Assembly (NCBI RefSeq): GCF_963675165.1
Contig: NC_087380.1
Span: 1,541,803-1,605,802 of the forward strand
Direction of reading: 5' to 3'
DNA length: 64,000 nt
Origin: Halichondria panicea
Taxonomy: Eukaryota; Porifera; Demospongiae; Suberitida; Halichondriidae
Below the pieces are notes generated by a model. The model did not search any database. It worked only from the letters and a program-made list of their open reading frames with translations, and was not told where the DNA came from. Position numbers and translations under genes: made by a program. Position 1 is the first letter of the stretch, and the number at the start of each line of letters is the position of its first letter. Shown here piece by piece: positions 1 to 61,549 of the stretch.

Positions 1-3000
1 CACTGATGGACTTGCTGACAGCAGACCTATTAATACCATTGCTACCAACACTTGTGACAATGGCTACACTCTCACTGGAGGGGGTTTCAGACAATGTCAG
101 AATGATGGGACCTGGAGTGGAACAGCTCCAACCTGTTAAGGTGAGTTCCACTACATCTTAACAGTTGCTTGATACAGTGAACACAGGACCCACTGAACCA
201 CCCACCACCTGTCCTGACCTCACTGTATCAGCCAATGGAATGATCAGCTACAATATGGGGACTGCTAGTCTGAGACCAGTGGGCACTGTGGCCACCTTGA
301 CTTGTGACACTGGCTACACTCTCAATGGAGTCAGCACCAGGACTTGTGGGAGTGATGGAGGGTGGAGTGGGTTTGTTCCAATATGTCAGCGTACGTGGAA
401 TGGACTTTGTACTGTTTGTTTGTTGAGTGTATTGTCTCCCATACAGCTAACTGCCGTGACTTACCCTCACTGACCAATGGGATGATTATGTACAGTGCTG
501 GATCCACTAACAACAGACCTTTCCTCTCTAGTGTTGTGTACTCCTGCAACACTGGCTACACTCTCACTGGAGATACCTTTAGGTTGTTCTGTGTGACTGG
601 AGGGAGATGGAATGGGTTAGCTCCAATTTGTCAGCGTAACCGTAAGTGTCTGTACTGTTGAATGTATAATTTTCACTATTTCAGAGTTCCACTTCACCTT
701 TCTTGATACAGTAACCACTGAACCACCCACCACCTGTCCTGACCTCACTGTACCAACCAATGGAATGATCAGCTACAATATGGGGACTGTTAGTCTGAGA
801 CCAGTGAACACTGTGGCCACCTCCACCTGTGTCATTGGCTACACTCTCAGTGGAGGTACTTTAAGGGTCTGTGTGACTGGAGGAGTTTGGAGTGGGTCAT
901 ATCCAGTGTGTCAGCGTAAGTTGAATGGACTTTGTACTGTTGTGTAGCTAGATCTTACCATGGCTGGATCTACATGCATGTATACCATAATTATGAGACT
1001 AAAATGTTTTGCGAGCATCCAACATAAGCAAATTTTGAGAGCAGTATTTGTACAACAACACACCCTTGCCAGAACGTAATAGTTGGATCACAAAGTGTCA
1101 CATTTTCTTGATTTGTCTCATTCGCAATGGTTTTACACCAGCAAAATATTCTATAGTAATACGGTATTCGTTCCAGTTCAGTGTGTTTATTGTTGAGTTT
1201 ACCTGTATTGTCTCTCATACAGCTAACTGCCTTGACTTACCCTCACTGACCAATGGGATGATTATGTACAGTGCTGGATCCAGTAACGACAGACCTTTCA
1301 GCTCTAGTGCTACACACTCCTGCAACACTGGCTACACTCTCACTGGAGGTACCACCAGGGTCTGTGTGAGTGGAGGGAGATGGAATGGGTTAGCTCCAAC
1401 TTGTCAGCGTGAGTTCTGTAACTCTTGTACAGTTTGTGTTTGTGAGTTATAGGTACATAAACCCAAGGAAGATTGCATAGGTGGAATTGCTGTTGTAATA
1501 TTTATGTTCACTATTTCAGGACCTTGTTCTGATTTACCACCACTAATGAATGGAGACATTACCTACAGTGGTGGACTTGCTGACAGTAGACCCATTGCTT
1601 TCTTCGCTTGTGACAATGGCTACACTCTCACTGGAGGGAGTTTCAGAGCTTGTCAGAATGATGGGACCTGGGATGGAACTACTCCAACCTGTCAATGTGA
1701 GTTCCACTACATCTTAACAGTTGCTTCACCTTTTCTTGATACAGTGAACACAGGACCCACTGAACCACCCACCACCTGTCCTGACCTCACTGTACCAGCT
1801 AATGGAATGATCAGCTACAATATGGGGACTGCTAGTCTGAGACTAGTGGACACTGTGGTCACCTACACTTGTGACACTGGCTACACTCTCAATAGAGACA
1901 CCACCAGGATCTGTGTGAGTGGAGGGAGATGGAGTGGGTCACCTCCAACTTGTCAATGTGAGCTCTGTAACTCTTGTACAGTTGAGTATACGCATAAACC
2001 CGTTGAAAATAGCGTATAGATCAAAATGCTGCATGGTAGATATTATAGTTATGTTGATTCTCATACCCTAATACAGTGAACACAGGACCCACTGAACCAC
2101 CCACTACATGCCCTATACTGACTGCTCTGTCCAATGGAATGATCAGCTACAATATGGGGACAATACTAGTGGACACTGTGGCCACCTACACCTGTGACAC
2201 TGGCTACACTCTCAATGGAGGCAGCACCAGGACTTGTGGGAGTGATGGAGTGTGGAGTGGAACAACTCCTATTTGTCAAGGTAATGAGTACAAACTATAG
2301 TAATCATGGATTGATGGATTGTACTGCCCCCACAGCTACCTGTCCTGACCTCACTGTACCAGCCAATGGAGTGATCATCTACAGCTCTAGTACCTCACCA
2401 CACCCTCAGGGAACAGTGGCTACGCAGAGCTGCTTGAATGGATACGTACCCTGGACCACTACCAGCACTGCTACCAGAGTGTGTAGAGCTGGCAGATTGT
2501 GGAGTGGATCCTCTTTCACTTGTCAATGTAAACTAGTGCAATGAACTCTAACAGTGTTATAATCCCCCACCCCCACAGTACCTCCTGTCTACGTCTCCAT
2601 GGGAACCACCAACTATGCTGCTATGAACTCACAGGTTGCCATAGACACCATCGGAGATACCATTGAGACAGCATTGACTTGCAGAACTGACTCAACTATT
2701 TGCTGTACAGCACAAGATAATCCCAATAGTGCCAATGGATTAGGAGATTGGCTACTACCAAATGGAACAGCTGTCACTAGGAGACTGGACATTACTGAAT
2801 CAGACACTGATCTACTGTACAGTGTTGGAGATAGAGGTGCACTCAGACTCCATCGTCGAGGGTCTGTGTCAGGCCCCACTGGCTCCTACTGCTGTGTGAT
2901 TCCTGACAATACTGGAGTAGAAGTGGCATTCTGTGTGCAGTTAGGTGAGTGGGTCTGTGTTCATTCATTAATTATATAATTTATTGTTTCAGTGACTGGA

Positions 3001-3600
3001 GTCATCACTACCTCTCCTACTCCCGCTACAAGTAAGTGGCACCAATTATTGAGATGATCGCAGCATGTATTGTGTCTGAGTTGTCTCATGCATTCCATTA
3101 CAGCCTCTACTGATGAGAGCTCTCTCTGTCAGTGTGACAACACTGGTGCTGTGGTGGGAGGAGTAGTGGCCCTGGTAGCAATGGTGGTGATTGCAGTGAC
3201 TGTAGTGATGGTGACCTACCTAGTGCTCCGGCACAAGAGAGGAGGGATAATGTGAGTTGGTTTAAAGTGGTTTGTGTCATTAGTTTAAGTAGACACACTC
3301 TGTTGTGTGTAAACAAGCTTCATACGAACTAAACAAACTGAAAGCTTTTATTGTCATAATTACTACTAATAGTAATATATATCATCTGTTCTCTCCACAC
3401 ACAGGACTGTTCCTCGAGATATCACCCTTACTGACCAGGGTCAAAGTGCAGCCGCTACCTACGAGACCGTGTCTGCCACTTACGAGGAGATTCCAGCCTC
3501 CAGAGAGGTCAAAGGTGACTACAGCTACACACAGAACAATGCCTACTTGACTGTGAGTGGGCGTGAGGCTCCTGCTGTTGGAGGAATATACGATAACTGA
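1..3600 (+). CDS. Receptor A: sushi/Cys-Cys Ig-like type I membrane receptor, 5' truncated
   Basis: This is a multi-exon gene entering from the left edge. Exons read by eye: 1-140, 178-390, 447-635, 712-915, 1223-1408, 1520-1696, 1745-1957, 2077-2280 and 2336-2527 (nine sushi domains, each a phase 1-1 exon with four Cys and a conserved Trp), then 2579-2944 (Ig-like domain with CC pairs, TICC and SYCC), 2993-3031 (Thr/Pro linker), 3104-3251 (transmembrane segment, VVGGVVALVAMVVIAVTVV, then basic RHKRGG) and 3405-3600 (tail with YETV, YEEI, YLTV and a final IYDN). It should be a cell-surface protein with a tyrosine-phosphorylatable tail. The ligand is unknown. All exons are in phase, but the first visible sushi exon has TAA (137-139) where paralogs have CAA or CAG, so this copy is null unless that exon is skipped. 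The signal peptide lies outside the window. Confidence 0.85.
985..1166 (-). mobile_element. MITE, TACCGTATTACTA family, intron of receptor A
   Basis: Reverse-oriented copy: AAATGTTTTGCGAGC near 1003 and TAGTAATACGGTA ending at 1166. The internal words TTGCCAGAACG and CATTCGCAA are the reverse complement of those in the copies at 14835, 31225, 47387 and 59120. Confidence 0.7.
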
Positions 3601-4095: not shown

Positions 4096-6792
4096 ATGGA
4101 GACTCAAGGTGTTCAGCTGCTGCTGCTGTTGTGTGCTGTGTCCACCTGCTGGGGACAAGGTAATGTAGTGATAAGCTAGGTATCCTGAGTGTGATATCTC
4201 AACTAGCTTAGTTTACTGATAGTGGTGATACCTATGAGCTCTGTCCAATTCCTTATAATCTATGGTCTAACCATTCATAGTCTACCTGACTCTGGGATCT
4301 GGTCCTAATATCACCACTGACAATACTGAGATCTTTATCACTGACATTGGAGAGGATGGTGGTCTCCCTTCTCTCACCTGTCACACTGACCTCACTACTT
4401 GCTGTAGAAGTGTTGCTGACAACAATGGTAATGGTAGACTAGGACAGTGGGTGTATCCTGATGGGAGTGTGGTACTGAGGAATGGTTCCTCATTGACTGT
4501 TGGACAGCAGTTCTACATTATAAGGAATGATGCTCAACTCATCAGACTGGCTCGTAGAGAGACTACCAACCCTCTCATTCCAACCGGGTCCTACTGTTGT
4601 ACTGTACCAACTAATGGAGGAGAGATTACCCTCTGTGCTAACCTGGGTGAGTGCAGGGGAGTAGGGAGTACGAGTATTGGAGCACCCCTCATCTCAAGCT
4701 ACCTTACCTAGTCGCTCCTTGAACAGCTAGCTTGCATTGGTGCCACAGCTAGTTACAGGGATATAGCTACAGTAGTTTACTTGAGGTAAAGACTCAAAGG
4801 TTAGAGGTCATGAAGCACATGCGGCGCATCATCTTTAATTACTCGCGTATACTGGAAAGTTTTATTACTACCAAATTTGCTCAGAATTAATCTCAGGGAA
4901 TGTAGAATGCCACATTTTTTTGACCCCCGTATTTGTCAGTATTCACCTAGTATTCAGCCACCTCCCTCAGCACCCACCTAGTATTTGTATGTGTTATCTT
5001 ATTCATGAGTTCATGAAACCATTACAACTCTTCTATGCAGTTCCATTGTATCATGCGCTTTCCATATCAATCCCTCTTGCAGTTTCTCCAATCCCATGTT
5101 CTGATAATCTCCCGACCATCTCTAATGGAGCCATAACCTATACTGCTGGATCCACTAATAACAGATCAGTGGGTGCTACAGCTACTTACATGTGGTGCTT
5201 TATAATCCCTACACTCTGGTTGGAATGTCAGTGAGGACTTGTGGGAGTGATGGAGAGTGGAGCTCATCACTAGCTCCAGTGTGTCAGCGTAAGGAATGAC
5301 TGAATGTGTACGTTGAGTGTATACCTATTCCTATAGTGATAACCTGCTCTGACCTACCCTCATTGACAAATGGGGACACTGACTATGGTGTTGCTGGATC
5401 CACTGACAGCAGACCAGTGGACACCGTGGCCACCTACACTTGTAACCCTGGCTTCACTCTCAATGGAGACACCACCAGGACTTGTGGGAGTGATGGAGTG
5501 TGGAGTGGGTTAGCTCCAACTTGTCAGCGTAAGATTTATACGGTTTGAATGTATGTTCACTATTCATTTTCAGGACCTTGTTCTGATTTATCACCACTAA
5601 TGAATGGAGTCATTACCTACACTGGTGGACTTGTTGACAGCAGACCTATTAATACTTTTGCTACCTTTACTTGTGACAATAGCTACACTCTCACTGGAGT
5701 GATTTTTAGGGTATTTTGTCAGAATGATGGTACCTGGAGTGGAACAACTCCAACCTGTCAATGTAAGCTAGTACAATAAACAGTCTAACAGAGTTACAAT
5801 CCCCCACCCCCACAGTACCTCCGATCTACGTTTCCATGGGAACCACCAACTATGATGTTATGAACTCACAGGTTGCCATAGACACCATTGGAGATACCAC
5901 TGAGACAGCATTGACTTGCAGAACTGACTAAACTATTTGCTGTACGGGACAAGATAATCCCAATAGTGCCAAGGGATTAGGATATTGGCTACTACCGAAT
6001 GGAACAGTTGTCACTAGGAGTCCAGACATTACTGATTCAGACACAGATCTACTGTACAGTGTTGGAGCACTCAGACTCCATCGTCGAGGGTCTGTGTCAG
6101 CCCCCACTGGCTCCTACAGCTGTGTGATTCCTGCTAGGAGTGGAGAGGTCACTTTCTGTGTGCAGTTAGGTAAGTGGTTTGTTCATTAATTTAATTATCC
6201 TGTTGTTTCAGTGACTGGAGTCATTACTACCTCTCCTCCCACTACAAGTAAGTGGCGCTATTTGAGCCGAGCACAGCGTGTATTGTGTTAGGTTGGTGCT
6301 ATAACAGCTTGTCGGTTGTCTCATATAGCCTCTACTGATGACAGCTGTTTCTGTCAGTTTGACAACACTGGTGCTGTGGTGGGAGGAGTGGTGGCCCTGG
6401 TAGCAGTGGTGGCTATAGTAACTGGTGTAGTGATGGTGACCTACCTAGTGCTCCGGTACAAGAGAGGAGGGAAAATGTGAGTTTGTTTGTGTGGTTTGTG
6501 TCATTAGTTAAGTAGACACAAGCTTCCTATGGACCAACTGAACAAACTGAAAGCTTTTATTATCATAATTACTACACCTGTTCTCTCCACACACAGGACT
6601 GTTCCTCGAGATATCTCCCTTACTGACCAGGGTCAAAGTGTAAAAACTACCTACGAGACCGTCCCTGCCACTTATGAAGAGATCCCAGCCTCCGAAAAGG
6701 TCAAAGGTGACTACAGCTACACACAGAACAATGCCTACTCGACTGTGAGTGGGCGTGAGGCTCCTGCTGTTGGAGGAATATACGATAACTGA
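4096..6792 (+). pseudogene. Receptor B: sushi/two Cys-Cys Ig-like receptor with disabling lesions
   Basis: Exons: 4096-4159 (signal peptide METQGVQLLLLLCAVSTCWG), 4281-4646 (first CC Ig-like domain), 5083-5288, 5337-5528 and 5574-5762 (sushi), 5816-6169 (second CC Ig-like), 6212-6247 (linker), 6329-6476 (transmembrane) and 6597-6792 (tyrosine tail ending IYDN). The membrane-distal Ig-like domain is a layout not seen in A, E or H. Two lesions are visible. The sushi exon at 5083-5288 is 206 bp long, not a multiple of three, and loses frame around ACTTACATGTGG. The second Ig exon reads TAA at 5929-5931 where paralogs read TCA. The other exons are in phase with intact splice sites, so decay is recent, or the alleles are polymorphic. 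Confidence 0.8.
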
Positions 6793-7035: not shown

Positions 7036-7324
7036 AGAAATAAGAGCATGCAATGTAAGGTGTTCAGTTTCTGCTGCGTTTCTGTTGCTGTTGTGTGCTG
7101 TGTCTACCTGCTGGGGACAAGGTAATCTATAAGTACTAGCAGCCAGTTCCATAGAGTTCTCGTCTGTGTGTTCCTGTTCAGTACCATAATCTCAGTTGTT
7201 GAGTGATACAGATGTACGTACTTCATCAGCCCCTCTCCTTTCACCCACAAAAATGTTATGGCATAAAACAATTATATTAGTAACAAAAATAATGAAAATC
7301 GATTAACAACAGACTGGAAACTAT

Positions 7325-7367
7325 GTGTGTGGGTAAATATCATTAATGGAACAACTTACAAACAGAT
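7325..7367 (+). promoter_or_regulatory. Shared 5' element, copy 3
   Basis: Second-unit copy of the block (GTGTGTGGGTAAATATCATT then AATGGAACAACTTACAAAC), upstream of the second degenerate signal-peptide exon of receptor C. Confidence 0.5.
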
Positions 7368-7829
7368 AGTGTGCATGCAATGTAAGGTGTTCTGCTTCTG
7401 CTGCTGTTGCTGTTGTGTGCTGTGTCCACCTGCTGGGGACAAGGTAATCTATATATAAGTAGACATATTCTAGCAGTCAGTTCCATAGAGTTCCCGTCTG
7501 TGTGCTCCTGTTCAGTACCATAATCTCATAATTATGTTGTGAGTGTATACCTATTTCTCTACAGGTATATGTTTTGATCTAGCCACACTGACCAATCGGA
7601 TGATCTCCTACCAGCTGGAAAACATACCAGTAGCTACTGTGGCCACCTATACATCTGTACCACTGGCTTCACTCTCAATGGAGGCACCATGCACCAGGGC
7701 TTGTGGAAGTGATGGAATGTGGAATGGATCGGATCCAACTTGTCGGCGTAAGTGGAATGGACTGGTTTGTTGAGTGTATTGTCTCAGACTCTCATACAGC
7801 TAACTTTCTTGACCTACCCCCACTGATAG

Positions 7830-8210
7830 GCCCGTGTCAAATATTCACCTATTATTCAAATTTTTTATTCACACTGGATCCGCCTATTATTCAAATTGAT
7901 GACACCTATTATTCAAATCATTCAACATACACAGCAGCGAAATAAAACACCTATAAATTATATAGCACCAAAAAGTGGGATTAAGTCATTAATTTCAGCA
8001 GCGAAATAACAAACTTTAGCACACAAAACAAAATGTGGTTTCAACATTGATTTGACTAACATACTGCCATGTAAAATGTGGGCGTGTTTTGAGCTAATCG
8101 CATGTGCAACTCAATGAATATCATTAAACTATTTTCACAGTGCCTATTATTCAAATTTTAAAAAAGACTGCCTATTATAAAAAAATTATTCTGGAATATT
8201 TGGCACAGGC
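7830..8210. mobile_element. MITE inserted in a sushi exon of receptor C
   Basis: Terminal inverted repeats GCCCGTGTCAAATATTC and GAATATTTGGCACAGGC bound about 380 bp. The internal motif CCTATTATTCAAAT recurs four or five times near both ends. The interrupted exon continues on the right after an imperfect 15-bp flank duplication (CTACCCCCACTGAT / CTACCCACTCACTGAT). Confidence 0.75.
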
Positions 8211-8639
8211 CTACCCACTCACTGATCAACGGGATACAGTGCTGGATCCACTAACAACAGACCTTTCCTCTCTAGTGCTATGCACTCCTGCAACATTGGC
8301 TAATAGTATATAATCTCACTGGAACTAGATCTACTTTCAATGCAGGCACCAGGTTCTGTGTGAGTGGAGGAATCTGGGATCAACACCATTACAGCTGCAA
8401 CACTGGCTACATTCTCAATGGAGACAGTGGAATAGCTCACCTCCAACTTGTCAAGGTGAGGACAAAATTACACCCAGTTTCCTGTGGCCCCCCTCCCACT
8501 ATTACCAATGGATCTCCCGGACAACCAACCAGCACAATAATTGGAGGAGAGGCGACCTACACCTGTGACACTGGATTCAGTCTGCATGAGTTCTGCATGG
8601 CAACTGGAGGCTGAGCTGCTCACCGTCATTGTCAGAGTA

Positions 8640-25721: not shown

Positions 25722-26045
25722 CGCCGACTCAGCACATTTATAGATATTTTGCACGTGATCTCAACTTCCTTCCAACCGCCTCTGGCCTTTCTCTTTTTGC
25801 GGCCTGGAATCGAGGCTAGTGCACTTGTGCACATGTCACAACTATCTTAATTGGTACTAACAGCTTGTGGGTTGTCTCATACATTCCATTACAGCCTCTA
25901 CTCTCTCTATCTCTGCCAGTGTTACAGCCTCTACTCTCTCTCTGCCAGTGTGACAACACTGGTGCTGTGGTGGGAGGAGTGGTGGCCCTGGTAGCAATGT
26001 GGTGGTGATTGCAGTTGTATTGATGACGATAACTGAACTATACAT

Positions 26046-28014: not shown

Positions 28015-28101
<87 letters not shown>

Positions 28102-34100: not shown

Positions 34101-35240
34101 GGTAAAAATCCCATGTACCCTAGGTACATACTTGTGGCCAGCCTAAAGCCCACCCTCCACCCTTAAAGGGCTCTCTCCAGAGGAGGTTGGACACATATCA
34201 TCATGACGCCTTAATAATAATAATGTGATAATTATAAACCTTTATAGAATTCCTTTGAGGTCAAAGGTGAGAATGTAAAAGCTTATCAGTGCAAGTAAGA
34301 GCTAGAGAACGCTAAAGAGAAACAGATTAATGGTGCTCTGACCTCCTCTGCTCATATAGATCATAATCGGAATCCTGTTAAACAAAAATTGGAAAAGTGT
34401 CAAAAAAATCTAAATACTAGTCTAGATCCATCTTGGAATCTTTTCAGCAGTGTAGGGAAGGTGAGAGGGCGGTGGGAATGCTCCTAGATACTTTTGGCTA
34501 CTTGCAGTGTCTCTGTACAGCCTACAAAACAGTGGAGCATCGAGGTGCCTAATGGTGCCTAATCGGCCATTTTAATTAGATTCTTATGAGCGCACGTGAT
34601 AAAACCTAACGGTGATGACGCGCGTCCAACCTCCTCTGGGCTCTCTCTTTTATAGGACACTATACTGTGACACATTGGATCACATTGTGAAGATCAATTC
34701 TTCAGTATCCAATCAGATTCACTAAAACTACCGGACCCCATTGGAACTGGGGTGTTAAGTTGTAAATGTGGTTTGTCAAGTGCAAGCACACCCACACAAA
34801 TGTGCACACAAAATGTGCACAGTACATGCATGGCAGGGATCAAAGCAGTTGTAAATGGGTTGGACAACAGCTTCTAATTGCTTCTAATCAATATGTGTTC
34901 ATAGTACAAGCTATATACCTGTACCATGGATATCTGCGTGTGTATTGTTACAATAACAATACACACGCAGATATCCATGGTACAACTATTACATGTACAG
35001 CTATATATATATATATACTGCCGCCCACTCCACAGGCCCCTCCTCTCCTACCACGCCCATGTCACTGACTGTATCCATGGTGAACCATCAGTCGGCTAGC
35101 TTCGAGTGGGTGGTGATGACTGTTGCCTATGACAACGAGAGTTACATAGTGACATATGGCCTCGACTCTAATGACCTCAGCATCTTCAGTGCCACTCAAC
35201 CTGGCTCCAGTGACATCAGCCTCACCAATAGTGTAAGGCA

Positions 35241-35285
<45 letters not shown>

Positions 35286-38200
35286 TGTGCGTGTGTATGT
35301 GTGTACCCACCTTGCAGGTGTACAGTATATCTGTAGGGGGTCTACAAGTGAAGACAAGGTATTATTATCGTGTGGTGTCTACCAACTCAGCAGGCAGTAC
35401 CCAATCAGAGCTGGCCACCTTCAACACCACTGGTGTTGGTGAGGGAGTGTGTTGGCTTCCTATAGCTACAACACTACATTTAACACTAACTTCTTGGTAG
35501 TGTGTGTGTATATAAATTGTACACTGCATGTACATGCATGTGCTACAGTAGCACAGTTGTGTGTATGCTTGACCACCGCTGCAATACTGCAGGTCCGACT
35601 GCTCCCCTCTCCCTGAGCTATATTATGACCACACCCACTAACCACACCTTCTCTTGGCTTCTTCCCAACGATACTGATGTTACTGTAAACCAATACACAC
35701 TCACCTGCCAAGGAACACTCCGGTACCTAATTATAATGACTGTACAATAATGTACTATAATGTGTTGTACTACTGCTGACAGGAATGGGGACCCTCTGGA
35801 TACTGTCATCATAGTAACCGTCATGACCAGTGTGAACTCTGACCTCGTCCCATGGGCCAACTACACATGCTTTGTAGTTGCTAGTGACAAAGATGGCTCC
35901 TCCCCTAGTAGCAACAAGATCAGTTTCATCACTCCTGAAACAGGTGTTTCTTTACTTGAATAACCTCCCCAACCAGCAATCACCTACACACACATCACAC
36001 ATCACGCTCACATTCCCTACCCCTCACAGCTCCTAGTGGACCCCCTGGTAACTTTTTAGTTGGTTTGAATCCTACCGGAGGGATGATACCATTCACCTGG
36101 ACTTCACCACCTTCTAACCAAAGAAATGGATTCATCATTACATACTCTCTGGAGTGTAGTGCAGGACCAACAGATACCGTTGTCACAGTGTTCCCGCCAT
36201 CTCCTAGCAACCAGTACACGGCCATCAACTACTCTGCCCTCACTACCTACACTTGTAGTGTACGAGCTAGGAACAGTAAGGGGGAGGGGCCACCAGCCAC
36301 ACTAGACGTTACCACAGGAGAGGATGGTACATATCATGCATGTGATAGGTTCGGGACATTAATTGTGTATTGCCTTTGACCCCTGTAGTTCCTGGAGCTC
36401 CTCCGATGTCGTTCACTGCCACCGCTCGTACTGACGGGACGGTGCTCTTTAATTGGAGTCCACCCCCCTTGGCACAACAAAATGGCGTCCTCACTGACTA
36501 CATTTTGACCTGTACCCCGCCACTTTCCTTCAACTATGGTCCTAACGAGGTGGGCGGGACTGGTGAAGGGTTTTCTCCTGCTACACGCTACACATGCACA
36601 CTCACTGCCAGCACAGCAATCGGAGATGGTCCATCAGCCAGCGTAACCGTAGTAACATGTAAGTATATAAGCATGCCTAAAGTTATATAGTAACTGTGGA
36701 TCCTCCCACTTCTTGTAGTTCCGTCAATACCAGCTGTGAGTGTTATCTCTCTATCAAGTACTCAGCTGGGGGTCAACTGGACCACACCCCTTAATGCACT
36801 CATCACAGAGCATATTATATATCGGGATGGAGTGGAGTTTGGCCGCTCCCAGGGGTCAGAGTTTATTATCAGTGGTCTACGCCCATACACCGAGCATAAT
36901 GTGGGGGTCAGTGCTAGTAACGAGGCAGGAGAGGGGTCAGTCAGCGAGGGACAGATTGTCAGGACACTAGAGGATTGTGAGTGCACGGGTATCAGTGTGT
37001 GTATTAGGAGCCTTTGTGGATCATAATAATTATACAGTAAGTATTTAGTGCTGCTCTAAGAAAACAAATTATCGTTAGTTTGTGGAGACTTTTATTGATC
37101 ATCATTATTACAGTAGGGTTAGCAGCTTTTCCCCCCACCATCATAACTTTGAATCACCATCCCTATTACCCTCCACAGTGGGCGTGTGTAGTGTATAGCA
37201 TTATGCTGTTACCCCTCACAGTGCCTGGGCGTGTGGAGTGTGCCCCTCGCTGGGTGTCTAGCTCCTCCACTTTTGTCACTGTACGTTGGGCCCCCCCCAC
37301 TCAAGAGAACGGCATCACCCTCGCCTACCACATCCGATTGGTCCGTTATGGCAACTCTGACTCCACCCCCCTGGCCGAGGCTAACATGACTAGCTCTGAT
37401 AGAGAGGTGACACTAACCCCCCGTGATGACTTGGTAGGGGGTGTGCCCTACACTGTCCAGGTAGTAGCTGAGAATAGCATCGGACGTAGTACTGAGATAT
37501 GCCAATCCATTGACTTCATTGCTCAACTTGGTGAGTGGAGATTGATAGCTACTAAATTTTTGAAATTGGTTGATCCAAATTATAGTCATGGCTATAGTCT
37601 TTGCGAAATGCCTCATTTTAAGCATGGCTATGGCCTTTTTGTTTTGGTAAAGTTTGATGTCCCCCCCACAGAGCCCCCGTCCCCCTCTAGCCTGGGGGTC
37701 TCACGTACTGTTGATACTATAACACTGTCCTGGGATGTGCCTACTCTACTGGAGGCTAGAGGCTATGTTAGCTACACAGTGACCTTTGGACCCAGCGTGG
37801 GGGCCCGCAGGAGACGACAGACACCTGATGAATGTAGCCTGTCACCTTGTAATGTCCCCGTGGAGAGAGGGGGTGTGGTCATCAGTGGCCTAGACCCTGG
37901 AACGAACTATGACCTCACAGTTACACCATCCAATGAGGACAACATTACTGGAGTGGCTGCCACGGCAACAGCTCCAAGTAAGTCTTAATAATGTCTCCTG
38001 TGCCGGTAAATACAATGTGCAGGATGGTGGTATTTTGCACACTATACTATAGACGGCAGTCTTACTATTATACCTGTGTTCCTTGCCCGGCCCCCTACAG
38101 CATTGTTGTGTGCCCACTATTGGCATACATGTACATGTACTATACAGTTTGTAGTCGTGAGCCTAAACCCCGGCAATGAAGAAAGTTAGACTGGCGGCAA

Positions 38201-42013: not shown

Positions 42014-45000
42014 ATGGAGACTCAAGGTATTCAGCTTCTGCTACTGTTGCTGTTGTGTACTGTGTCCACTTGCTGGGGAAAAAGAAAAGGTATATTGTAG
42101 ATGATAAGCCTATTTCTAGCAGCTAGTTCTATATTGTCAGTTTTTGTCAGTCAGTATAATTATTAAAAAACCAGTAGGTTTTACATAGGATTGGCAGTGT
42201 TCAAACTGTTCTATCTCTAGCCAAATCAATAAACTGGCTGGACAGATAGTTTATTTGGCCTTCACTCTGTGTGTATGTCTCAATTTATTATTCATGTATG
42301 AATGTTTTAAATTGCAATTCCAATCCGTTATAACGTCATGAACATGTGCAACTATAGTGTTGATACATTACATTGTAGCATCACAATTGACATTTAATAC
42401 TCTAGGAATAATTATTGAGGATATGTATAATTATACTGTGTTCCAGATCCATGCATGCATCTATATATACCATCAGCTTACATCTACCACATTATCATCC
42501 ATACGTGTCACTATGCATGGATGGACTGTGTATATATATGCAGGGCCGTAGATAGCTTAGGTTTGCAGGGGTGGCAAAATAACAGCTGAAAATTTTTACT
42601 AAAAAAAAGGTCAACTGTTATTTCATATCCTCTGAGTATGGCAACTTCCAACTTGCTGTGGCACCAACCTAGACCAACTAAAACAAGGTAGCTTGAGCTA
42701 GAAAGGTATACTCCTGCTTCCAGAGGCGCAGTGGAGCTCAGAATTTTACCTAAAAAAAGGTCATCACTCGTTCTCAACAGTCAGCATGTGCATCAGATAG
42801 CCCTGCCCACATCTCAATTTCAATAAAAGCATTGGGCATGTGCAGATCAGTAATTTTGGCAGATCTAGAATGCCAGGGGGGCAGTTGCCCCCCCTGCCCC
42901 CCCCCCCCCCACTGTCTACAGCCCTGATATGCCTGTGCTCAATACTGTGTTAGGGAACATCAAATCATTATGATTATGCCCGCAAATTCCAATGTAGGGA
43001 TCGGTCATCACCCCACCTAAAATTACCAGCGAAAAATTACATGTAAATGACGGATTGGAGTTATGCTCTTGTCTGATTTCTTGTTTTCACACTTTTTGGT
43101 GTATCCCCCGACCAATCATAGCATATTGCAAATGTTTATCTAATCGGATAGAGTTTACATTTCTCCTACTTTATATACACCTATCTCACACCCTACACAT
43201 GCATTGATCACAGAACCCACCACCTGCTCTGACTTACCCTCACTGACCAATGGGATGATTACGTACAGTGCTGGATCCCCTAACAACAGACCTGTCAGCT
43301 CTAGTGCTGTGCACTTATGTAACACTGGCTACACTCTCACTGGAGGGAGTTTCACTGAAGGTACCACCAGGGTCTGTGTGAGTGGAGGGAACTGGTATGG
43401 ATCACCTCCAACTTGTCATGGTGAGTTAACTCTTGTACAGTTTGTGTGTTTGTGAGTACAATAGTAAACACAATACAAAGACTGTGTGAATCAAATTTCG
43501 GGTTGTGTGATAAGTAAAGGTAGTTATGTTGAGAATCTCACACCCTAACACATTGACCACAGAACCCACTACCTGCCCTGACTTACCCCCACTAACCAAT
43601 GGGATGATTACGTACAGTGGTGGATCTACTAACAACAGACCTCTCGAATCTGGAGCTACACACAGCTGCAACACTGGCTACACTCTCACTGGAGGTACCA
43701 CCAGGACTTGTGGGAGTGATGGAATGTGGAGTGGGTTAGCTCCAATTTGTCAGCGTAAGTGGAATGGACTCTGTAGTGTTTATTTGTTGAGTGTATATCG
43801 TCTCCCATACAGCTAACTGCCCTGACTTACCTACACTGACCAATGGGATGATTATGTACAGTGCTGGATCCACTAACAACAGACCTTTCCTCTCTAACTC
43901 TGTGCACTCCTGCAACATTGGCTACACTCTCACTGGAGGTGCTTTCACTGTACTTACCACAAGAGTCTGTGTGAGTGGAGGAAACTGGGATGGGTCAGCT
44001 CCAACTTGTCAAGGTGAGTTATGAAACAGTTTGTGTACACCCAAGGAAGACTGTATAAATCACAAGTATTGAACATTATGGTTGTTGGAGCCTGGGTGAA
44101 ACACTCGTACACACTGGCACAAGTATTGTGATTTTTTACATACGTGGTAAACGAACATGGTGGTTGTTTGTGTTCTGTTGGAATTGAATGCTATTTCATA
44201 CTGTGTGTGCATGTGTGTGTGTGTACGTGTTCTGGTTGTAAGCTTGCAAAAACGACTATATTATATCCATACTTACCACAGGACCCACTACCTGCCCTGA
44301 CTTACCCCCACTTACCAATGGAATGATTACGTACAGTGGTGGATCTACTAACAACAGACCTCTCGAATCTGGAGCTACACACAGCTGCAACACTGGCTAC
44401 ACTCTCAATGGAGGTACTGTCACCAGGGTCTGTGTGAGTGGAGGGTGGAGTGGGTCAGCTATAACTTGTCAAGGTAAGTGGAACTGAATTTGTACAGTAT
44501 ATTGTTGAATGTGTGTTCACTGTAGCAGGAACTTGTTTTGATTTCCCACCACTAATGAATGGAGTCATTGCCTACACTGGTGGACTTACTGACATCAGAC
44601 CTATTAATACTTTCGCTACCTTCACTTGTGACAATGGCTACACTCTAACTGGAGAGGGTTTCAGAGTTTGTCAGAATGGTGGTACCTGGAGTGGAACAGC
44701 TCCAACCTGTCAAGGTGAGTTCCACTACATCTTAACAGTTGCTTTACCTTTCTTGATACAGTGAACACAGGACCCACTAAACCACCCACCACCTGTCCTG
44801 ACCTCACTGTACCAGCCAATGGAATGATCAGTTACAATATGGGGACTGCTAGTCTGAGAGCAGTAGAAACTGTGGCCACTTACACCTGTGGCACTGGATA
44901 CACTCTCAATGGAGGGAGCACCACCAGGACTTGTGGAAGTGATGGAGTGTGGAGTGGGTCAGCTCCAACATGTCAGCGTAAGTAAATGGACTTGTATTAA

Positions 45001-46617
45001 TTGTTTGTTGCATGAGTGTATCGACTCCTGTGCAGTGATACCCTGTTCTGACTTACCCCCTTTGACCAACGGGATGATCACCTATAGTGCTGGTGAATCC
45101 ACTGGCATCATACTAGTGGGCAGTACAGCTACTCACTCTTGTGGCAATAGCTACTTTCTGGTCGGAGAGGCAGTGAGGACTTGTGGGAATGATGGAAGGT
45201 GGAGTGAAACAGCTCCAGTGTGTCAGAAGCGTAAGAAGAATTGAATTTGTAGTATTTATTTGTTGAATGTGTGTTCACTGTTTCAGGAACTTGCTTTAAT
45301 TTACCACCACTAATGAATGGAGTCATTACCTACACTGATGGACTTGTTGACAGCAGACCTATTAACACCATTGCTACCTTCACTTGTGACAATGGCTACA
45401 CTCTCACTGGAGGGAGTTTCAGAGCTTGTCAGAATGATGGGACCTGGAGTGGGTCAGCTCCAACCTGTCAATGTAAGCTAGTAATAATAATACTGTATAG
45501 CGGATTTGTGCAAATTATGAACCGGCCAATAAAATTTATACAGCTCAGGATAGTTACATTGAACGTATTGCAGTAGAATAAATTCTTTTCGTATGATGCT
45601 CTACAATACCAAAATGTTCACCATACGTTAATAACCTGCTCTAACAGACTAACAATCCCCCACCCCCACAGTACCTCCTGTCTACGTCTCCATCACCAAC
45701 TATGCTGCTATGAACTCACAGGTTGCCATAGACACCATCGGATATACCACTGAGACAGCATTGACTTGCAGAACCGACTCAACTATTTGCTGTACAGGAC
45801 AAGATAATCCCAATAGTGCCAATGGATTAGGAGATTGGTTGTTTCCGAATGGAACAGCTGTCGTACGAACCCAGGACATTACTGATTCAGACACTGATCT
45901 ACTGTACAGTGTTGGAGATACAGGTGCACTCAGACTCCATCGTCGAGGGTCTGTGTCAGGCCCCACTGGCTCCTACTGCTGTGTGATTCCTGACAACACT
46001 GGAGTAGATGTGACATTCTGTGTGCAGTTAGGTAAGTGGGTCTGTGTTATGTTTCTTATCCATTGAATGATGTTGAGATGAGCGCAGCATGTATTGTGGT
46101 TCTTGTCATACATTCCATTACAGCCTCTACTGATGAGAGCTTTCTCTGTCAGAGTGACAACACTGGTGCTGTGGTGGGAGGAGTGGTGGCCCTGGTAGCA
46201 GTGATTGCAGTGACTGTAGTGATGGTGACCTACCTAGTGCTCCGGTACAAGAGAGGAGGGAAAATGTGAGTTTGCCACGGTTTAAAGTGGTTTTTGTAGA
46301 GTGTTGTTAGTTTAAGTAGACACACTTTGTTGTGTGTAAACAAGCTTCATATGAACTAAACAAACTGAAAGCTTTTATTGTCATAATCACTACTAATAGT
46401 AATATCATCTGTTCTCTCTACACACAGGACTGTTCCTCAAGATATCTCCCTTACTGAGCAGGGTCAAAGTTCAGCCGCTACCTACGAGATCGTCCCTGCC
46501 ACTTATGAGGAGATCCCAGCCTCCAGAGAGGTCAAAGGTGACTACAGCTACACACAGAACAATGCCTACTCGACTGTGAATGGACGGGAGGCTCCTGCTG
46601 CTGGAGGAATACAATAA
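42014..46617 (+). CDS. Receptor E: eight sushi, CC Ig-like, TM, tyrosine tail; intact
   Basis: Exons: 42014-42089 (signal peptide METQGIQLLLLLLLCTVSTC), sushi exons 43214-43420, 43563-43754, 43813-44013, 44282-44473, 44529-44714, 44762-44977, 45036-45230 and 45287-45472, then 45672-46031 (CC Ig-like), 46124-46265 (TM and RYKRGGKM) and 46428-46617 (tail). The sum is 2343 bp, an exact multiple of three without internal stop: about 780 aa. The Thr/Pro linker exon found in A, B and H is missing here; the Ig exon is in phase to join the TM exon directly. The tail ends GGIQ-stop because a small deletion removed the final YDN, while YEIV, YEEI and YSTV remain. The long first intron holds transposable elements. 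This is the best complete sushi-type member. Confidence 0.87.
42316..43150. mobile_element. Foldback family copy with a nested hAT-like element (42541-42926)
   Basis: The outer ends (CAATCCGTTATAACGTCATG at 42323; GACGGATTGGAGTTATGCTC to CTAATCGGAT at 43149) match the arms of the element at 23791-24332. Inside, CAGGGCCGTAGATAG (42541) and CTGTCTACAGCCCTG (42926) are the inverted ends of a hAT-like insertion with a C-rich run. It lies in the first intron of receptor E. Confidence 0.6.
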
Positions 46618-46955: not shown

Positions 46956-46985
46956 CTGTGGTGAAGACTTGGAGGTTGCATGCAA

Positions 46986-48561
46986 ATGGCTCAAGGTGTT
47001 CAGCTTCTGCTGCTGTTGTTATTGTGTGCTGTGTACACCTGCTGGGGACAAGGTACTATTTTGTTGATAAGCTATTTCTAGCATTTAGTTCCTTTAGTCT
47101 GTTAGTGTATTAAATCCTGTTCCATTTTTATAATCTCTTGTACTTACACACCTATCTTACCACTGCTTTAGCCACATGCTCTGATAATCTCCCGGCCCTC
47201 ACCAATGGATCTGTAACCTATACTAATGGACAAGCTAACAATAGGCCAGTGGGTGCTACAGCTACTTACACCTGTATTGGTGGCTACACTCTGGTTGGAG
47301 TGTCAGTAAGAACCTGTGAGAGTGATGGAGAGTGGAGCTCAGTAGCAGCTCCAGTGTGTCAGCGTAAGGAATGACTGAATGTGTAGTACCGGGGCATATT
47401 ACTAGAATGTTTTGCTGGTGAAAAAAAACTTTTGCGAATGAGCCACATCAGCAGAAAAGTTGACCCTTTGCGATCTAACTATTGCGTTCTGACAAGGATC
47501 ATGTGCATTTACTAGGTTTTGCGGATTATTGTTGCGAAGTGATCAACCATCGCAAAGTTCACAAATGTTTGATACTCGCAAAACATTCTAGCAATACGGT
47601 AACGTGTACGTTGAGTGTACCTGATCCCATAGTGATAACCTGTTCTGACCTGCCCTCACTGACTAATGGGATCATCATCTATGGTGGTGCTGGATCCAAT
47701 AACAGCAGACCAGTAGACACTGTGGCCATCTATACTTGTGAGGCTGGCTACACTCTCACTGACGTCAGCACCAGGACTTGTGGGAGTGATGGAGTGTGGA
47801 ATGGGTTTGCTTCAAATTGTTGGCGTAAAAGTGGAATGGACTTTGTAATGTTTGTTTGTTGAGTGTATCGTCTCCCTAACATAGCTAACTGCCCTGACTT
47901 ACCCTCACTGGCCAATGGGATGATTATGTACAGTGCTGGATCCAGTAACGACAGACCTTTCAGCTCTAGTGCTGTGCACACGTGCAACACTGGCTACACT
48001 CTCACTGGATATACTCTCACTGAAGGTACCACCAGTAGAGTATGTGTGAGTAGAGGGAAATGGAGTCAGTCAACTCTAACTTGTGAAGGTGATCTCTGTA
48101 ACTCTTGTACAGTTTGTGTTTATACGCATAAACCCGAATTATTGTGTGAATCAAATGTTTGGTTGTGAAGTGAACGTAGTTATGCAGAGGTGTATAGGAT
48201 GTTTTTGTGTAGGGGTATATATATGTTGTGTGTGTGGAGCTGATCGACAGATCATGGAGTAGTTCAGCTCTTACTTGTCAATGTGCACAATGCTCTAATA
48301 ACAGACTTGAGTAAATAGAACATTCAGTGTGCAGGTATATAGATATGTCCATTTGCTCTGCTTATACTGTTGTCTGTGACTGAAGTTATCACTATACCTC
48401 TGCAAGTAAGGGAACTATTATATAGATTGTTAGGTACGTAGGTCCTTGTGGGTTGTCTCATGCATTCCATCACAGCCACTATACTGACGAGAGCTCTCTC
48501 TGTCAGAGTGACAACAATCATAGTGCTGTGGTGGGAGGAGTGGTGGCCCTGGTAGCAGTGC
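46986..48561 (+). pseudogene. Receptor F: signal peptide and three sushi exons, 3' end lost
   Basis: Exons: 46986-47052 (signal peptide MAQGVQLLLLLLLCAVYTCW), 47172-47363, 47633-47824 and 47885-48088 (sushi). After these come decayed pieces: a sushi end (near 48235-48290), a linker-like stretch near 48377, and a transmembrane exon from about 48476 that stops abruptly at 48561 (GCCCTGGTAGCAGTG) and continues into unrelated sequence. At 48771 similarity to the sister copy G ends where a dispersed repeat begins, so the downstream exons still present in G are missing. At best the product is a truncated secreted protein. Confidence 0.75.
47387..47601 (+). mobile_element. MITE, TACCGTATTACTA family, intron of receptor F
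   Basis: The ends TACCGGGGCATATTACTAGA and CATTCTAGCAATACGGTA pair as imperfect inverted repeats. The interior is typical (TTGCGAATGAGCCACATCAG). Receptor B has the corresponding intron (5289-5336) without the insertion. Confidence 0.85.
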
Positions 48562-56315: not shown

Positions 56316-56402
56316 TGACGCATGCGCAGACAACTAGTACCAGGCCCAGTTGTTCGCCTAACCGTTATAAAAGCGAAAACTTGGCCTGGGATCGAGGCTA
56401 GT
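56316..56402 (+). repeat. Dispersed repeat R1, terminal fragment
   Basis: GACGCATGCGCAGACAACTA through CCTGGGATCGAGGCTAG, matching 49079-49165 in the same orientation. The sequence up to receptor H (56403-56631) shows no gene. Confidence 0.8.
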
Positions 56403-56631: not shown

Positions 56632-58350
56632 ATGGAGACTCAAGGTGTTCTGCTTCTGCTTCTTTTATTGTGTGCTGTGTCCACCTGCTGGGGACAGCAA
56701 GGTAATCCTGTGATAATGATTGTATTGGTGGTAGGTGCTATTCTGGGTGAGTAGATTGCACAAGTCACCATAATTATCATGCATGTGAATCTAAATGGTT
56801 AATAGATTGTGCTGTCTCCACAGCCACCTGTCCTGACCTCACTGTACCAGCCAATGGAGTGATTATCTACAGCTCTAGTACCTCACCACGCCCTCAGGGA
56901 ACACTGGCTACACAGAGCTGCTTGAATGGATACGTACCCTCCATTACCAGCACTGCTACCAGAGTGTGTCTATCTAACAGATTGTGGACTGGAACAGCTC
57001 TCACTTGTGAAGCGGGTAATTTTATTGAGTCTAAGCTAGTTTCGATGGTAGATAGATTGTACTGCCCCCCACAGCCATCTGTCCTGACCTTATTGTACCA
57101 ACCAATGGAGTGGTCATCTACAGTCCAGCTACCACCACCAGACTAGAGGGAACCATGGCTACACAGATCTGCTTGAATGGATACGTACCCTCCACTACTA
57201 GCACTGCTACCAGAGTGTGTAGAGCTGACAGATTGTGGAGTGGAGCAGCGGTCACTTGTCAATGTAAGCTAGTACAATGAACTCTAACAGACTTACAATC
57301 CCCCACCCCCACAGTACCTCCTGTCTACGTCTCCATGGGAACCACCAACTATGCTGTTATGAACTCACAGGTTGCCATAGACACCATCGGAGATACCACT
57401 GAGACAGCATTGACTTGCAGAACTGACTCAACTATTTGCTGTACAGGACAAGATAATCCCAATAGTCCCAATGGATTAGGAGATTGGCTACTACCGAATG
57501 GAACATCTGTCACAAGGAATCAGGACATTACTGATTCAGACACTGATCTACTGTACAGAAGTCGAGATACTGGTTCACTCAGACTCCATCGTCGAGGGTC
57601 TGTGTCAGGCCCCACTGGCTCCTACTGCTGTGTGATTCCTGACAATACTGGAGTAGATGTGACATTCTGTGTGCAGTTAGGTAAGTGGGTCTGTGTTCTG
57701 ATCCATTGATTATGCTATGTTTCAGTGACTGAAGTCATCACTACCTCTCCTCCCATTACAAGTAAGTCAGTGGTACTATTATTGAGATGAGCGCAGCATG
57801 TATTGTGTTAGGTACTAACAGCGTGTGGGTTGTCTCATACAATCCATTACAGCCTCTACTGCTGAGAGCTCTCTCTGTCAGTGTGACAACACTGGTGCTG
57901 TGGTGGGAGGAGTGGTGGCCCTGGTAGCAGTGATTGCAGTGACTGTAGTGATGGTGACCTACCTAGTGCTCCGATACAAGAGAGGAGGGAAATTGTGAGT
58001 TTACCATGGTTTAAAGTGGTTTGTGTAGAGTCAGTGTCATTAGTTTAAGTAGACACACTTTGTTGTGTGTAAACAAGCTTCATACAAACTAAACAAACTG
58101 AAAGCTTTTATTGTCATAATTACTACTAATAGAAATATCATCTGTTCTCTCTACACACAGGACTGTTCCTCAAGATATCTCCCTTACTGACCAGGGTCAA
58201 AGTGCAGCCGCTACCTACGAGATCGTCCCTGCCACTTATGAGGAGATCCCAGCCTCCAGAGAGGTCAAAGGTGACTACAGCTACACACAGAACAATGCCT
58301 ACTCGACTGTGAATGGACGGGAGGCTCCCGCTGCTGGAGGAATACAATAA
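56632..58350 (+). CDS. Receptor H: two sushi, CC Ig-like, TM, tyrosine tail; intact and compact
   Basis: Exons: 56632-56701 (signal peptide METQGVLLLLLLLCAVSTCW), 56824-57015 and 57075-57263 (sushi, residues about 24-150), 57315-57680 (CC Ig-like, 151-272), 57726-57761 (linker), 57853-57994 (TM about 301-324, then RYKRGGK) and 58161-58350 (tail, 332-394). The total of 1185 bp is in frame, 394 aa. The two sushi domains are an unusual subtype with CLNGYVPS and VCxxxRLW, shared only with exon 2336-2527 of A and the damaged 60721 exon of G. The tail has YEIV, YEEI and YSTV but ends GGIQ like E. Unlike most copies, its 5' flank lacks the shared upstream element; the region before it is repeat R1 plus unique sequence. 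Confidence 0.87.
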
Positions 58351-58656: not shown

Positions 58657-58690
58657 TGTGGGTGGGTAAGTATCGTTAATAGAACAAAAC
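58657..58690 (+). promoter_or_regulatory. Shared 5' element, copy 8 (truncated right half)
   Basis: GTGGGTGGGTAAGTATCGTT then AATAGAACAAA, 29 bp before the receptor G start codon. Same variant as copy 7. Confidence 0.55.
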
Positions 58691-58719
58691 TATGGTGAAG
58701 ACTTGGAGGTTGCATGCAA

Positions 58720-61549
58720 ATGGCTCAAGGTGTTCAGCTTCTGCTGCTGTTGTTATTGTGTGCTGTGTACACCTGCTGGGGACAAGGTACTATTTTGTTG
58801 ATAAGCTATTTCTAGCATTTAGTTCCTTTAGTCTGTTAGTGTATTAAATCCTGTTCCATTTTTATAATCTCTTGTACTTACACACCTATCTTACCATTGC
58901 TTTAGCCACATGCTCTGATAATCTCCCGGCCCTCACCAATGGATCTGTAACCTATACTAATGGACAAGCTAACAATAGACCAGTGGGTGCTACAGCTACT
59001 TACACCTGTATTGGTGGCTACACTCTGGTTGGAGTGTCAGTAAGAACCTGTGGGAGTGATGGAGAGTGGAGCTCAGTAACAGCTCCAGTGTGTCAGCGTA
59101 AGGAATGACTGAATGTGTAGTACCGGGGCGTATTACTAGAATGTTTTGCTGGTGAAAAAAAATTTTTGCGAATGAGCCACATCAGCAGAAAAGTTGACCC
59201 TTTGCGATCTAACTATTGCGTTCTGGCAAGAATCATGTGCATTTACTAGGTTTTGCGGATTATTGTTGCGAAGGATCAACCATCGCAAAGTTCGCAAATG
59301 TTTGATACTCGCAAAACATTCTAGTAATACGGTAACGTGTACGTTGAGTGTACCTGATCCCATAGTGATAACCTGTTCTGACCTGCCCTCACTGACTAAT
59401 GGGATCATCATCTATGGTGGTGCTGGATCCAATAACAGCAGACCAGTAGACACTGTGGCCATCTATACTTGTGAGGCTGGCTACACTCTCACTGACGTCA
59501 GCACCAGGACTTGTGGGAGTGATGGAGTGTGGAATGGGTTTGCTTCAAATTGTTGGCGTAAGTGGAATGGACTTTGTACTGTTTGTTTGTTGAGTGTATC
59601 GTCTCCCTAACATAGCTAACTGCCCTGACTTACCCTCACTGGCCAATGGGATGATTATGTACAGTGCTGGATCCAGTAACGACAGACCTTTCAGCTCTAG
59701 TGCTGTGCACACGTGCAACACTGGCTACACTCTCACTGGATATACTCTCACTGAAGGTACCACCAGTAGAGTATGTGTGAGTAGAGGGAAATGGAGTCAG
59801 TCAACTCTAACTTGTGAAGGTGGGCTCTGTAACTCTTGTACAGTTTATGTTTATACGCATTATTGAAGATTGTGTGAATCAAATGTTTGGTTGTGAAGTG
59901 AACGTAGTTATGCAGAGGTGTATAGGATGTTTTTGTGTAGGGTATATAATGTTGTGTGTGTGGAGTTGATCAACAGATCATGGAGTAGTTCAGCTCTTAC
60001 TTGTCAATGTGCACAATGCTCTAATAACAGACTTGAGTAAATAGAACATTCAGTGTGCAGGTATATAGATATGTCCATTTGCTCTGCTTATACTGTTGTC
60101 TGTGACTGAAGTTATCACTACCTCTACAAGTAAGGGAACTATTATATAGATTGTTAGGTACGTAGGTCCTTGTGGGTTGTCTCATGCATTCCATCACAGC
60201 CACTATACTGACGAGAGCTCTCTCTGTCAGAGTGACAACACTCATAGTGCTGTGGTGGGAGGAGTGGTGGCCCTGGTAGCAGTGCAGAATCTATTATTTA
60301 ATACTGATAATTTACACCAAATTTGCTAGAATTAATCTCAGGGAATGTAATTATTCGACTACCTTCCTCAGCACTCACTTAAAAAACCTTCCTACACCTC
60401 TGGAATATTATTATCATTGCGTTACTTCTGTATTTTAAAAATTTCAGCCATCTCACACCCTACACAGCGGACACAGAACCCACTGATCCTCCACCCATCA
60501 CCTGCACTGTACTGACTGCTCCGACCAATGGAATGATCGGCTACAATATGGGGACAAGATCAGTGGGCACTGTGGCCACCTACACCTGTGACACTGGCTA
60601 CACTGTCAATGGAGACACCACCAGGGCTTGTGGGAGTGATGGAGTGTGGAGTGGGTCAGCTCCAACATGTGAAGGTAATGAGTACAAGCTAGTGTGTTGA
60701 TGGTTGTGTTGTCTCCACAGCCACCTGTCCTGACCTCACTGTACCAGTCAATGGAGTGCTCTAGCACCTCACCACGCCCTCAGGGAACAGTGGCTACACA
60801 GAGCTGTACTGAGGGGTTCGGACTGTCTGGTGGGATAGAGAGAATGTATCAATTTGACAGAACGTGGAGTGGAGTGATCATCACCTGCCAACAATGTAAG
60901 TTGGTATGCTAGTCATTCCACCATCAGCTCCTGTATACGTCTCCATCCTTTTACTACATTATGCTGTGTTTCAATGACTGAAGTCATCACAGTCATCACT
61001 ACCTCTCCTCCCACTGCAAGTAAGTGGCACTATTATTGAGTTATTAGGACTAGATTGATACAAATTAGCAGCTTGCAATCCATTACAGCCTCTACTGATG
61101 AGAGCTGTCTCTGTCAGTGTCCCCAGAGTGACAGCACTGGTGCTGTGGTGGGAGGAGTGGTAGCCCTGGTAGCAGTGAGTGCAGTGACTGTAGTGATGGT
61201 GACCTACCTAGTGCTCCGGTACAAGAGAGGAGGGAAAATGTGAGTTTAAGTTGTTTGTGTACATTAGTTTAAGTAGACATATTTTGTTAAAAGCTTTTAT
61301 TCATAATTTCTACTAAGTATAATCTATGTTCTCTCTTGACACAGGAGTGTTCCTCATGTTCCTCGAGATATTCCCCTTACTGACCAGGGTCAAAGTGCAG
61401 CCGCTACCTACGAGACCGTCCCTGTCACTTATGAGGAGATCCCAGCCTCCAGAGAGGTCAAAGGTGACTACAGCTACACACAGAACAATGCCTACTCGAC
61501 TGTGAGTGGGCGTGAGGTCCCTGCTGCTGGAGGAATATATGATAACTGA
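58720..61549 (+). CDS. Receptor G: sushi receptor with damaged middle and no Ig-like domain
   Basis: Exons: 58720-58786 (signal peptide MAQGVQLLLLLLLCAVYTCW), 58906-59097, 59366-59557, 59616-59819 and 60477-60674 (sushi), 60721-60895 (sushi, broken), about 61000-61020 (linker), 61089-61239 (TM, with an extra PQS before DSTGAVVGG) and 61345-61549 (tail with YETV, YEEI, YSTV, IYDN). Decayed exons and a truncated TM exon (about 60196-60285) sit inside the intron 59820-60476. The 60721 exon is 175 bp because 11 bp present in H are deleted, giving a TAG at once. The Ig exon is reduced to about 20 bp (near 60928). Since all ectodomain exons are phase 1-1, skipping the broken exon would give a four-sushi membrane receptor with an intact tail. 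Confidence 0.65.
59120..59334 (+). mobile_element. MITE, TACCGTATTACTA family, intron of receptor G
   Basis: The ends TACCGGGGCGTATTACTAGA and CATTCTAGTAATACGGTA are inverted repeats. It is the duplicated counterpart of 47387-47601. Confidence 0.85.

Follow-up and report, generated by a model that had tools for sequence, protein, structure and literature searches.

Clustered putative receptor genes with mosaic sushi and Ig-like ectodomains and more than one cytoplasmic output on a single contig of the sponge Halichondria panicea

A 64,000-nucleotide stretch of the Halichondria panicea genome (NCBI RefSeq assembly GCF_963675165.1, contig NC_087380.1, positions 1,541,803 to 1,605,802 of the forward strand), referred to below as the window, carries part of a family of putative receptor genes in which sushi and immunoglobulin-like (Ig) exons are joined to a shared transmembrane (TM) exon and a short tyrosine-bearing tail exon. 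With a probability of roughly 0.55, the sequence points to a contig-wide set of clustered type I receptors with exon-shuffled ectodomains, multiple outputs and a paired-receptor-like recognition role. Related ectodomain modules stand on different outputs: 20 of 34 exons of one Ig type (Ig A) precede the short tail and 13 precede a receptor tyrosine phosphatase. The window corresponds to C4:1541803-1605802 within a 131 Mb assembly, C4 being the 7.8 Mb contig that bears it. Profile queries were built from the window's own exons.

Shared exons, mosaic ectodomains and more than one output

A profile search of the window found six complete pairs of TM and tail exons (match starts 3106/3406, 6331/6598, 39642/40890, 46126/46429, 57855/58162 and 61091/61358) and three TM remnants that lack a tail exon (25937, 48483 and 60207), all on the forward strand, as are the window genes described below. 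An earlier note on this DNA had counted at least nine copies or remnants sharing both exons; the total of nine stands, with three of them reduced to TM-only remnants. Identity to gene E (42014..46617) is 85-91% for the TM exon and 75-97% for the tail exon. The phase 1-1 arrangement of ectodomain exons claimed in that note was borne out by 46 of 48 sushi matches, which have a nearby AG and GT at the corresponding positions by permissive criteria; the other two are the first exon, truncated where the window starts and containing a stop, and the exon at 13088, with donor AT. The intron between TM and tail is in phase 2, and Pfam Sushi was matched in all ten sushi exons sampled. A chance repeat was rejected, as the six TM-tail pairs share homologous introns; retrogene origin was rejected because the copies still carry introns.

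The receptor cluster is real, and the family is far larger than the window. Across the whole assembly the tail query gave 42 matches, 37 of them at E 2.4e-20 or better and the remaining five weaker (E 6.5e-7 to 0.125). C4 holds 39 of the 42, in four clusters (0.27-0.32, 1.10-1.15, 1.54-1.67 and 2.92-2.93 Mb) and as singles. The TM query gave 59 matches in the assembly, 40 of them at E <= 2.3e-6; like the strong tail matches, these 40 are clustered and almost all on C4. The recurrent gene order is 2 to about 13 sushi exons, membrane-proximal Ig, TM and tail, with an N-terminal Ig ahead of the sushi exons in some genes; the membrane-proximal module can be Ig A, Ig B preceded by a small sushi, the two together, or absent. 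For the clusters at 0.27-0.32 and 1.10-1.15 Mb the layout was taken from pieces of about 3 kb around the tails.

Ectodomains are mosaic. When each sushi exon (n=136) is attributed to the gene whose tail comes next downstream, the closest other sushi exon belongs to a different gene in 125 cases and to the same gene in 11. Two of the eight sushi exons of gene E are mutually closest, and the nearest relatives of the remaining six lie at four further locations, at distances of up to 2.2 Mb. Ig type (A or B) needs seven changes on the tail tree, which is poorly resolved (it comprises the 34 of the 37 tails with a length of 150 nt or more; the same set served for tail dN/dS). Genes E/F and G/H are joined by a 2.65 kb tandem duplication of 97.6% identity, and the tandem clusters contain open, broken, truncated and recently duplicated members side by side. 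The earlier proposal of birth-and-death evolution with ectodomain exchange is supported by these comparisons.

Used as a query, the Ig A exon of gene E matched thirteen exons at C4:331-480 kb; in ten of these the identity is 85-92%, a level shared by most short-tail kin. The tail query had no match in this region, because Ig A there leads into a phosphatase. At locus L057, Ig A is followed by a linker exon and a TM exon of another kind; next come an intracellular Ig (Pfam Ig_3) and the beginning of a tyrosine phosphatase, the body of which is matched by PF00102 at C4:343451 (E 2e-47). Another phosphatase-linked gene can be laid out by positions on C4 (Ig 478681, sushi 479374, Ig A 480444, TM 480965, phosphatase 482847 and 483220). 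Among the 34 Ig A matches counted on C4, the short tail follows within 1.2 kb in the 20 cases and the phosphatase domain within 2.2-4.2 kb in the 13; one has neither. This count omits the partial pieces at 293710, 315928 and 317029 and the Ig B match at 1128012, groups 278152 with distant matches, and covers C4 only (C1:8938442 lies near a phosphatase match). The idea of a constant TM/tail module with exchanged ectodomains is accordingly half of the picture, since receptor tyrosine phosphatases, too, have closely related ectodomain modules ahead of them. PF00102 gave 361 first-look candidates, 150 of which were scored; at least 51 stretches lie on C4, some of which may be fragments of one gene.

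At the DNA level, L057 and short-tail loci share up to 94% identity across stretches of 487 and 543 bases that take in introns; the similarity stops by the linker exon in most loci. The Ig A tree comprises 28 sequences, nine from the 13 phosphatase-linked exons and 19 from short-tail genes (at least 300 nt). It requires five changes of output label, and the two sets interleave, marginally: forcing the phosphatase-linked rows into one clade costs 34.8 log units (approximately unbiased test, p-AU 0.035). Two hybrids, at C4:314 and C4:1100 kb, have a phosphatase-type TM exon and a mini-exon followed by the short tail, with junctions that read as in frame via phase-2 joins.

A second ectodomain type precedes, by position, the same two outputs. 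The giant gene of the window (27343..41075), which from phase and order may be one transcript, has Ig and FN3 exons at 28.1-38.0 kb, sushi exons at 38537-39216, Ig B at 39282-39581, TM at 39642-39788 and tail at 40890-41075. Its Ig-FN3 paralogue at C4:1662-1668 kb is mostly 84-94% identical per exon (one exon 67%) and leads to TM and short tail without intervening sushi. A third copy has Ig at C4:89442 and FN3 at 93889, then a phosphatase domain at 96577 on the same strand. With two copies on the short tail and one before a phosphatase, the Ig-FN3 ectodomain is thus, by position, found with both outputs. The giant gene had been described with five Ig and seven FN3 domains. Ten stretches were searched against Pfam (six Ig-like exons, two FN3 stretches and the membrane-proximal Ig of the giant gene, and Ig A of gene E). 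Ig or FN3 was matched in five, with four scoring over the curated cut-off, which confirms that description in part; there was no match for Ig-like exons 1, 5 and 6 or for either membrane-proximal Ig, and the first three FN3 exons lay outside the test. Long CA/GT microsatellites (28007-28100 and 35220-35304) adjoin an Ig exon and an FN3 exon of this gene.

A more distant member of this Ig kind (37% to Ig A) lies at C4:991 kb, where another TM and a different short tyrosine tail follow it; this tail ends in VYDN and has 17 matches, 15 of them at C4:961-1011 kb. This region (L067) forms an additional receptor cluster, alike in its kind of Ig but with its own YDN-ending tail. For 103 distant Ig matches on C4, the next element downstream within 12 kb is a short tail in 16, a phosphatase in 30 and neither in 57. 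First looks with the two Ig queries gave 275 and 299 candidates; among the best 150 listed for each, 141 for Ig A and 137 for Ig B lie on C4. Kinase domains are present at C4:2.52-2.76 Mb, where locus L068 reads as a TM and the start of a kinase. A receptor kinase with the shared ectodomain gained no support, and no Ig A or Ig B match falls at C4:2.69-2.76 Mb among the best 150 listed per query. Arrays of kinase-domain genes were also seen at C10:1.70-1.94 Mb (mostly single open frames of about 560-1090 amino acids) and C1:15.5-17.4 Mb (mostly single open frames of 276-493 amino acids).

Genes of the window and their domains

Genes E and G have canonical splice sites and uninterrupted frames. 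Gene E encodes 777 amino acids with a signal peptide, eight sushi exons, Ig A (45672-46031), TM (46124-46265) and tail (46428-46617). Gene G (56632..58350) encodes 382 amino acids with a signal peptide, two sushi exons, Ig A (57315-57680), TM (57853-57994) and tail (58161-58350).

Gene A (1..3600) starts upstream of the window and has eight open sushi exons (178-2527), Ig A (2579-2944), TM (3104-3251) and tail (3405-3600); its lesion is a TAA at 137 in the first sushi exon visible, and the later exons are open. The eight or nine sushi domains previously given for E and A become eight plus one Ig in E, and eight open exons, one Ig and the TAA-bearing exon in A. Gene B (4096..6792) has a signal exon at 4096, an N-terminal Ig (4280-4642), sushi, Ig A (5818-6165), TM (6331-6477) and tail (6598-6792). 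The layout of two Ig domains and sushi reported for it holds in the order Ig, sushi, Ig, but the gene is broken by a TAA at 5929 in Ig A and a sushi frameshift near 5195. A further decayed copy (7057..8638) consists of a signal-exon-like stretch and sushi stretches, and a frameshifted TM exon remnant lies at 25937..25999.

Gene F (46980..48560) is truncated: a signal exon, three sushi exons and a linker-like exon near 48348-48401 are followed by a TM that breaks off after GVVALVAV. Gene H (58714..61549) begins with a signal exon, three sushi exons 98-100% identical to those of gene F, and the TM remnant at 60207; these are followed by a sushi exon at 60503, a broken sushi exon (TAG 60762), TM at 61091 and tail at 61358-61549. 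It is without a membrane-proximal Ig. Gene H had been listed with two sushi domains; it has instead four open ones and a broken fifth, if the exons on both sides of the TM remnant belong together.

The N-terminal and membrane-proximal Ig domains have six invariant cysteines common to 15 aligned members. No Pfam family reached the cut-off, with a weak I-set match in one of the 15. A profile search of PDB listed ten matches, all immunoglobulin superfamily by name and all below significance (E 0.08-0.76), the best being TIM-2 and TIM-1, with GxYCC aligned. An Ig fold of the six-cysteine domain is accordingly a weakly supported prediction.

Conserved motifs of the short tail are YE[TI]V, YEEI, YSYT and AYSTV. 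In 33 of the 37 tails (C4:3807223 being among those left out) four of five tyrosine columns are invariant and the fifth changes twice, both times to F. Deviations in tyrosine columns number 2 of 165 cells, compared with 151 of 1813 elsewhere (Fisher p 2e-4 with non-independent cells; 0.024 by random column draws). Among the 36 of 37 tails longer than 45 amino acids, YEEI occurs in 33, Y-x-x-[ILV] in 35 and YxN in 20. YEEI suits the preference of Src-family SH2 domains.

Ratios of nonsynonymous to synonymous substitution (dN/dS) were obtained as pooled Nei-Gojobori counts over non-independent pairs, with rows containing stops excluded. The values are 0.78 for sushi (nearest pairs), 0.62 and 0.79 for the N-terminal Ig (all and nearest pairs), 0.73 and 0.63 for TM, 0.53 and 0.57 for the tail, and 0.29 and 0.30 for Ig B; Ig A gave 0.49 in short-tail genes, 0.75 in phosphatase-linked genes and 0.61 for nearest pairs of both. 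Sushi and N-terminal Ig are among the fastest modules and Ig B is the slowest. The comparison of ectodomain with tail exons suggested in the earlier note thus came out with sushi and N-terminal Ig faster than the tail, and with none above 1.

Interpretation, alternatives and related systems

The proposed mechanism is that whole phase-1 ectodomain exons move between genes and so diversify type I receptors. The mosaicism itself is observed; the movement would have occurred by unequal crossing-over or gene conversion, with compatible swap points in the phase-1 introns before TM and the phase-2 intron after it. Three outputs are seen: the short tyrosine tail, which may be phosphorylated and then dock SH2 proteins, the intracellular Ig with receptor tyrosine phosphatase, and the other short tyrosine tail behind the more distant Ig. 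Because related ectodomains sit ahead of predicted docking tails and of phosphatases, receptors for related ligands could drive phosphotyrosine signalling in opposite directions, like paired receptors. The ligands would be self or microbial if the role is recognition. The interpretation offered in the earlier note is, as a whole, partly supported.

A more ambitious version of this reading is tentative, and we hold it at somewhat less than even odds. Shuffled sushi, Ig and FN3 modules on at least two kinds of tyrosine tail and at least 13 phosphatases could form a combinatorial complex, an independently evolved paired-receptor system that might supply the missing receptors of self/non-self recognition in sponges. 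Both the sign of the output and the diversity of recognition would then evolve by exon exchange, and the same 3 Mb would hold many more phosphatase genes as well as receptor kinases.

Several results weigh against the main reading. Lesions are present in genes A (one stop), B, F and H. On the Ig A tree the output label shows more clustering than shuffled labels do (5 changes, where shuffles average 7.7-7.8), only two output changes are forced by well-supported branches, the approximately unbiased test is marginal, and the tree rests on nine of 13 phosphatase-linked exons. The C4:314 kb hybrid may be damaged, because it has only partial Ig A pieces upstream. For the six-cysteine domain, a single-sequence PDB search gave three non-Ig matches, the best a lectin (E 0.014), and the AlphaFold model, mostly strands, is poor (predicted local distance difference test score, pLDDT, 55.7). 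Positive selection is without support because pooled dN/dS is below 1 in every module. The four tails left out of the column count, which are divergent or short, lack some of the tyrosines, and tyrosines are likewise lost in divergent tails that lie outside the clusters. The immunoreceptor tyrosine-based activation motif (ITAM) is found in 0 of 36 tails and the strict inhibitory motif (ITIM) in 6 of 36, and identity as an ITIM/ITAM immunoreceptor was rejected on these counts.

The average dN/dS below 1 would also suit a set of expanded adhesion or patterning receptors, protocadherin- or LAR-like, that mark cell identity within the body and serve neither immunity nor allorecognition. Ig, FN3 and sushi are common adhesion modules, and the Ig-FN3 block before a phosphatase domain at C4:89-97 kb fits such an origin; extensive mosaicism, copy decay and tandem turnover were judged less usual in developmental adhesion genes, and this explanation is considered unlikely. 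Less probable still is mostly passive duplication, in which relics have accumulated in a duplication-prone region with gene conversion and few copies function: the lesions in A, B, F and H and segmental copies of 84-99.7% identity speak for it, but E and G have open frames and canonical splice sites, and four of five tyrosine columns are invariant in 33 tails. It is very improbable that some of the copies are an assembly artefact, both haplotypes of one locus having been placed in tandem: the near-identical F and H sushi exons and the Ig A and tail exons identical between C4:2.92 and 2.93 Mb would agree with it, but most listed alignments of the window to other copies are about 79-92% identical and the clusters are scattered over megabases.

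KIR, LILR and SIRP receptors likewise have related ectodomains on different outputs, clustered genes and birth-and-death evolution. They oppose an ITIM tail to an ITAM adaptor, whereas the opposition proposed for the sponge family is between a docking tail and a receptor phosphatase. LAR-type (R2A) receptor tyrosine phosphatases have an Ig-FN3 ectodomain before the phosphatase domain, as at C4:89-97 kb; unlike in these, the related Ig-FN3 block of the window precedes a non-catalytic short tail.

By description only, the nearest systems in the accessible text of the sources are Botryllus FF/FcoR and Hydractinia Alr; the family is assigned to neither. The FF/FcoR genes of the fuhc locus form clustered multigene families with Ig and sushi domains, a TM, a Y-x-x-I/L/V tail and more than one output (PMC12065747); FcoR has one sushi, a variable Ig and two C2 Ig, with ITIM or hemITAM possible (PMC12065747). 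The sponge family resembles them in its Ig and sushi ectodomain, single TM, tail with a tyrosine core motif and clustered genes. It differs in its many sushi domains, six-cysteine Ig, absence of ITAM and phosphatase output, a phosphatase-tailed member not being described in the accessible part of that source (PMC12065747). Hydractinia Alr comprises 41 IgSF genes in one allorecognition complex, for which the portion consulted describes neither sushi domains nor exchange with phosphatase receptors (PMC11999971). In the accessible text of the literature covered (including PMC5336234, PMC12065747, PMC11999971, PMC12723187 and PMC12909245), which takes in few subscription papers, the family is undescribed, as is ectodomain sharing with receptor phosphatases in a sponge.

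The self/non-self receptors of sponges and other early animals are poorly known, and the family provides a concrete list of candidates. If the recognition reading is true, it suggests that opposing paired receptors, familiar chiefly from vertebrates, may have evolved independently here, the opposing arm being a receptor phosphatase.

Neighbouring sequences

A neighbouring sushi array of another subfamily (11566-15452) contains a unit of 815-821 bp three times, with about 98% identity between copies; a relative at C4:1639-1644 kb is a run of 18 near-identical sushi exons. The segment 7970-20396 is a segmental duplication shared with C4:1634675-1650725 (84-99.7% identity in aligned pieces), which carries the decayed sushi stretches and this array. 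Inverted repeats at 48976-49164 / 55320-55508 and at 23793-24330 (189 and 129 nt, 96-97%) are perhaps mobile-element ends downstream of the truncated gene F, and a copy of 55322-56400 with 94.8% identity lies on C5. Scans of the window with Rfam (gathering threshold) and for tRNA genes gave no match. Elsewhere in the assembly, a nuclear cox1 fragment (L066, C1:5280527), for which COX1 of plants, bacteria and fungi gave the best PDB matches and mammals ranked lower, contains an in-frame TGA and is the sole COX1 match.

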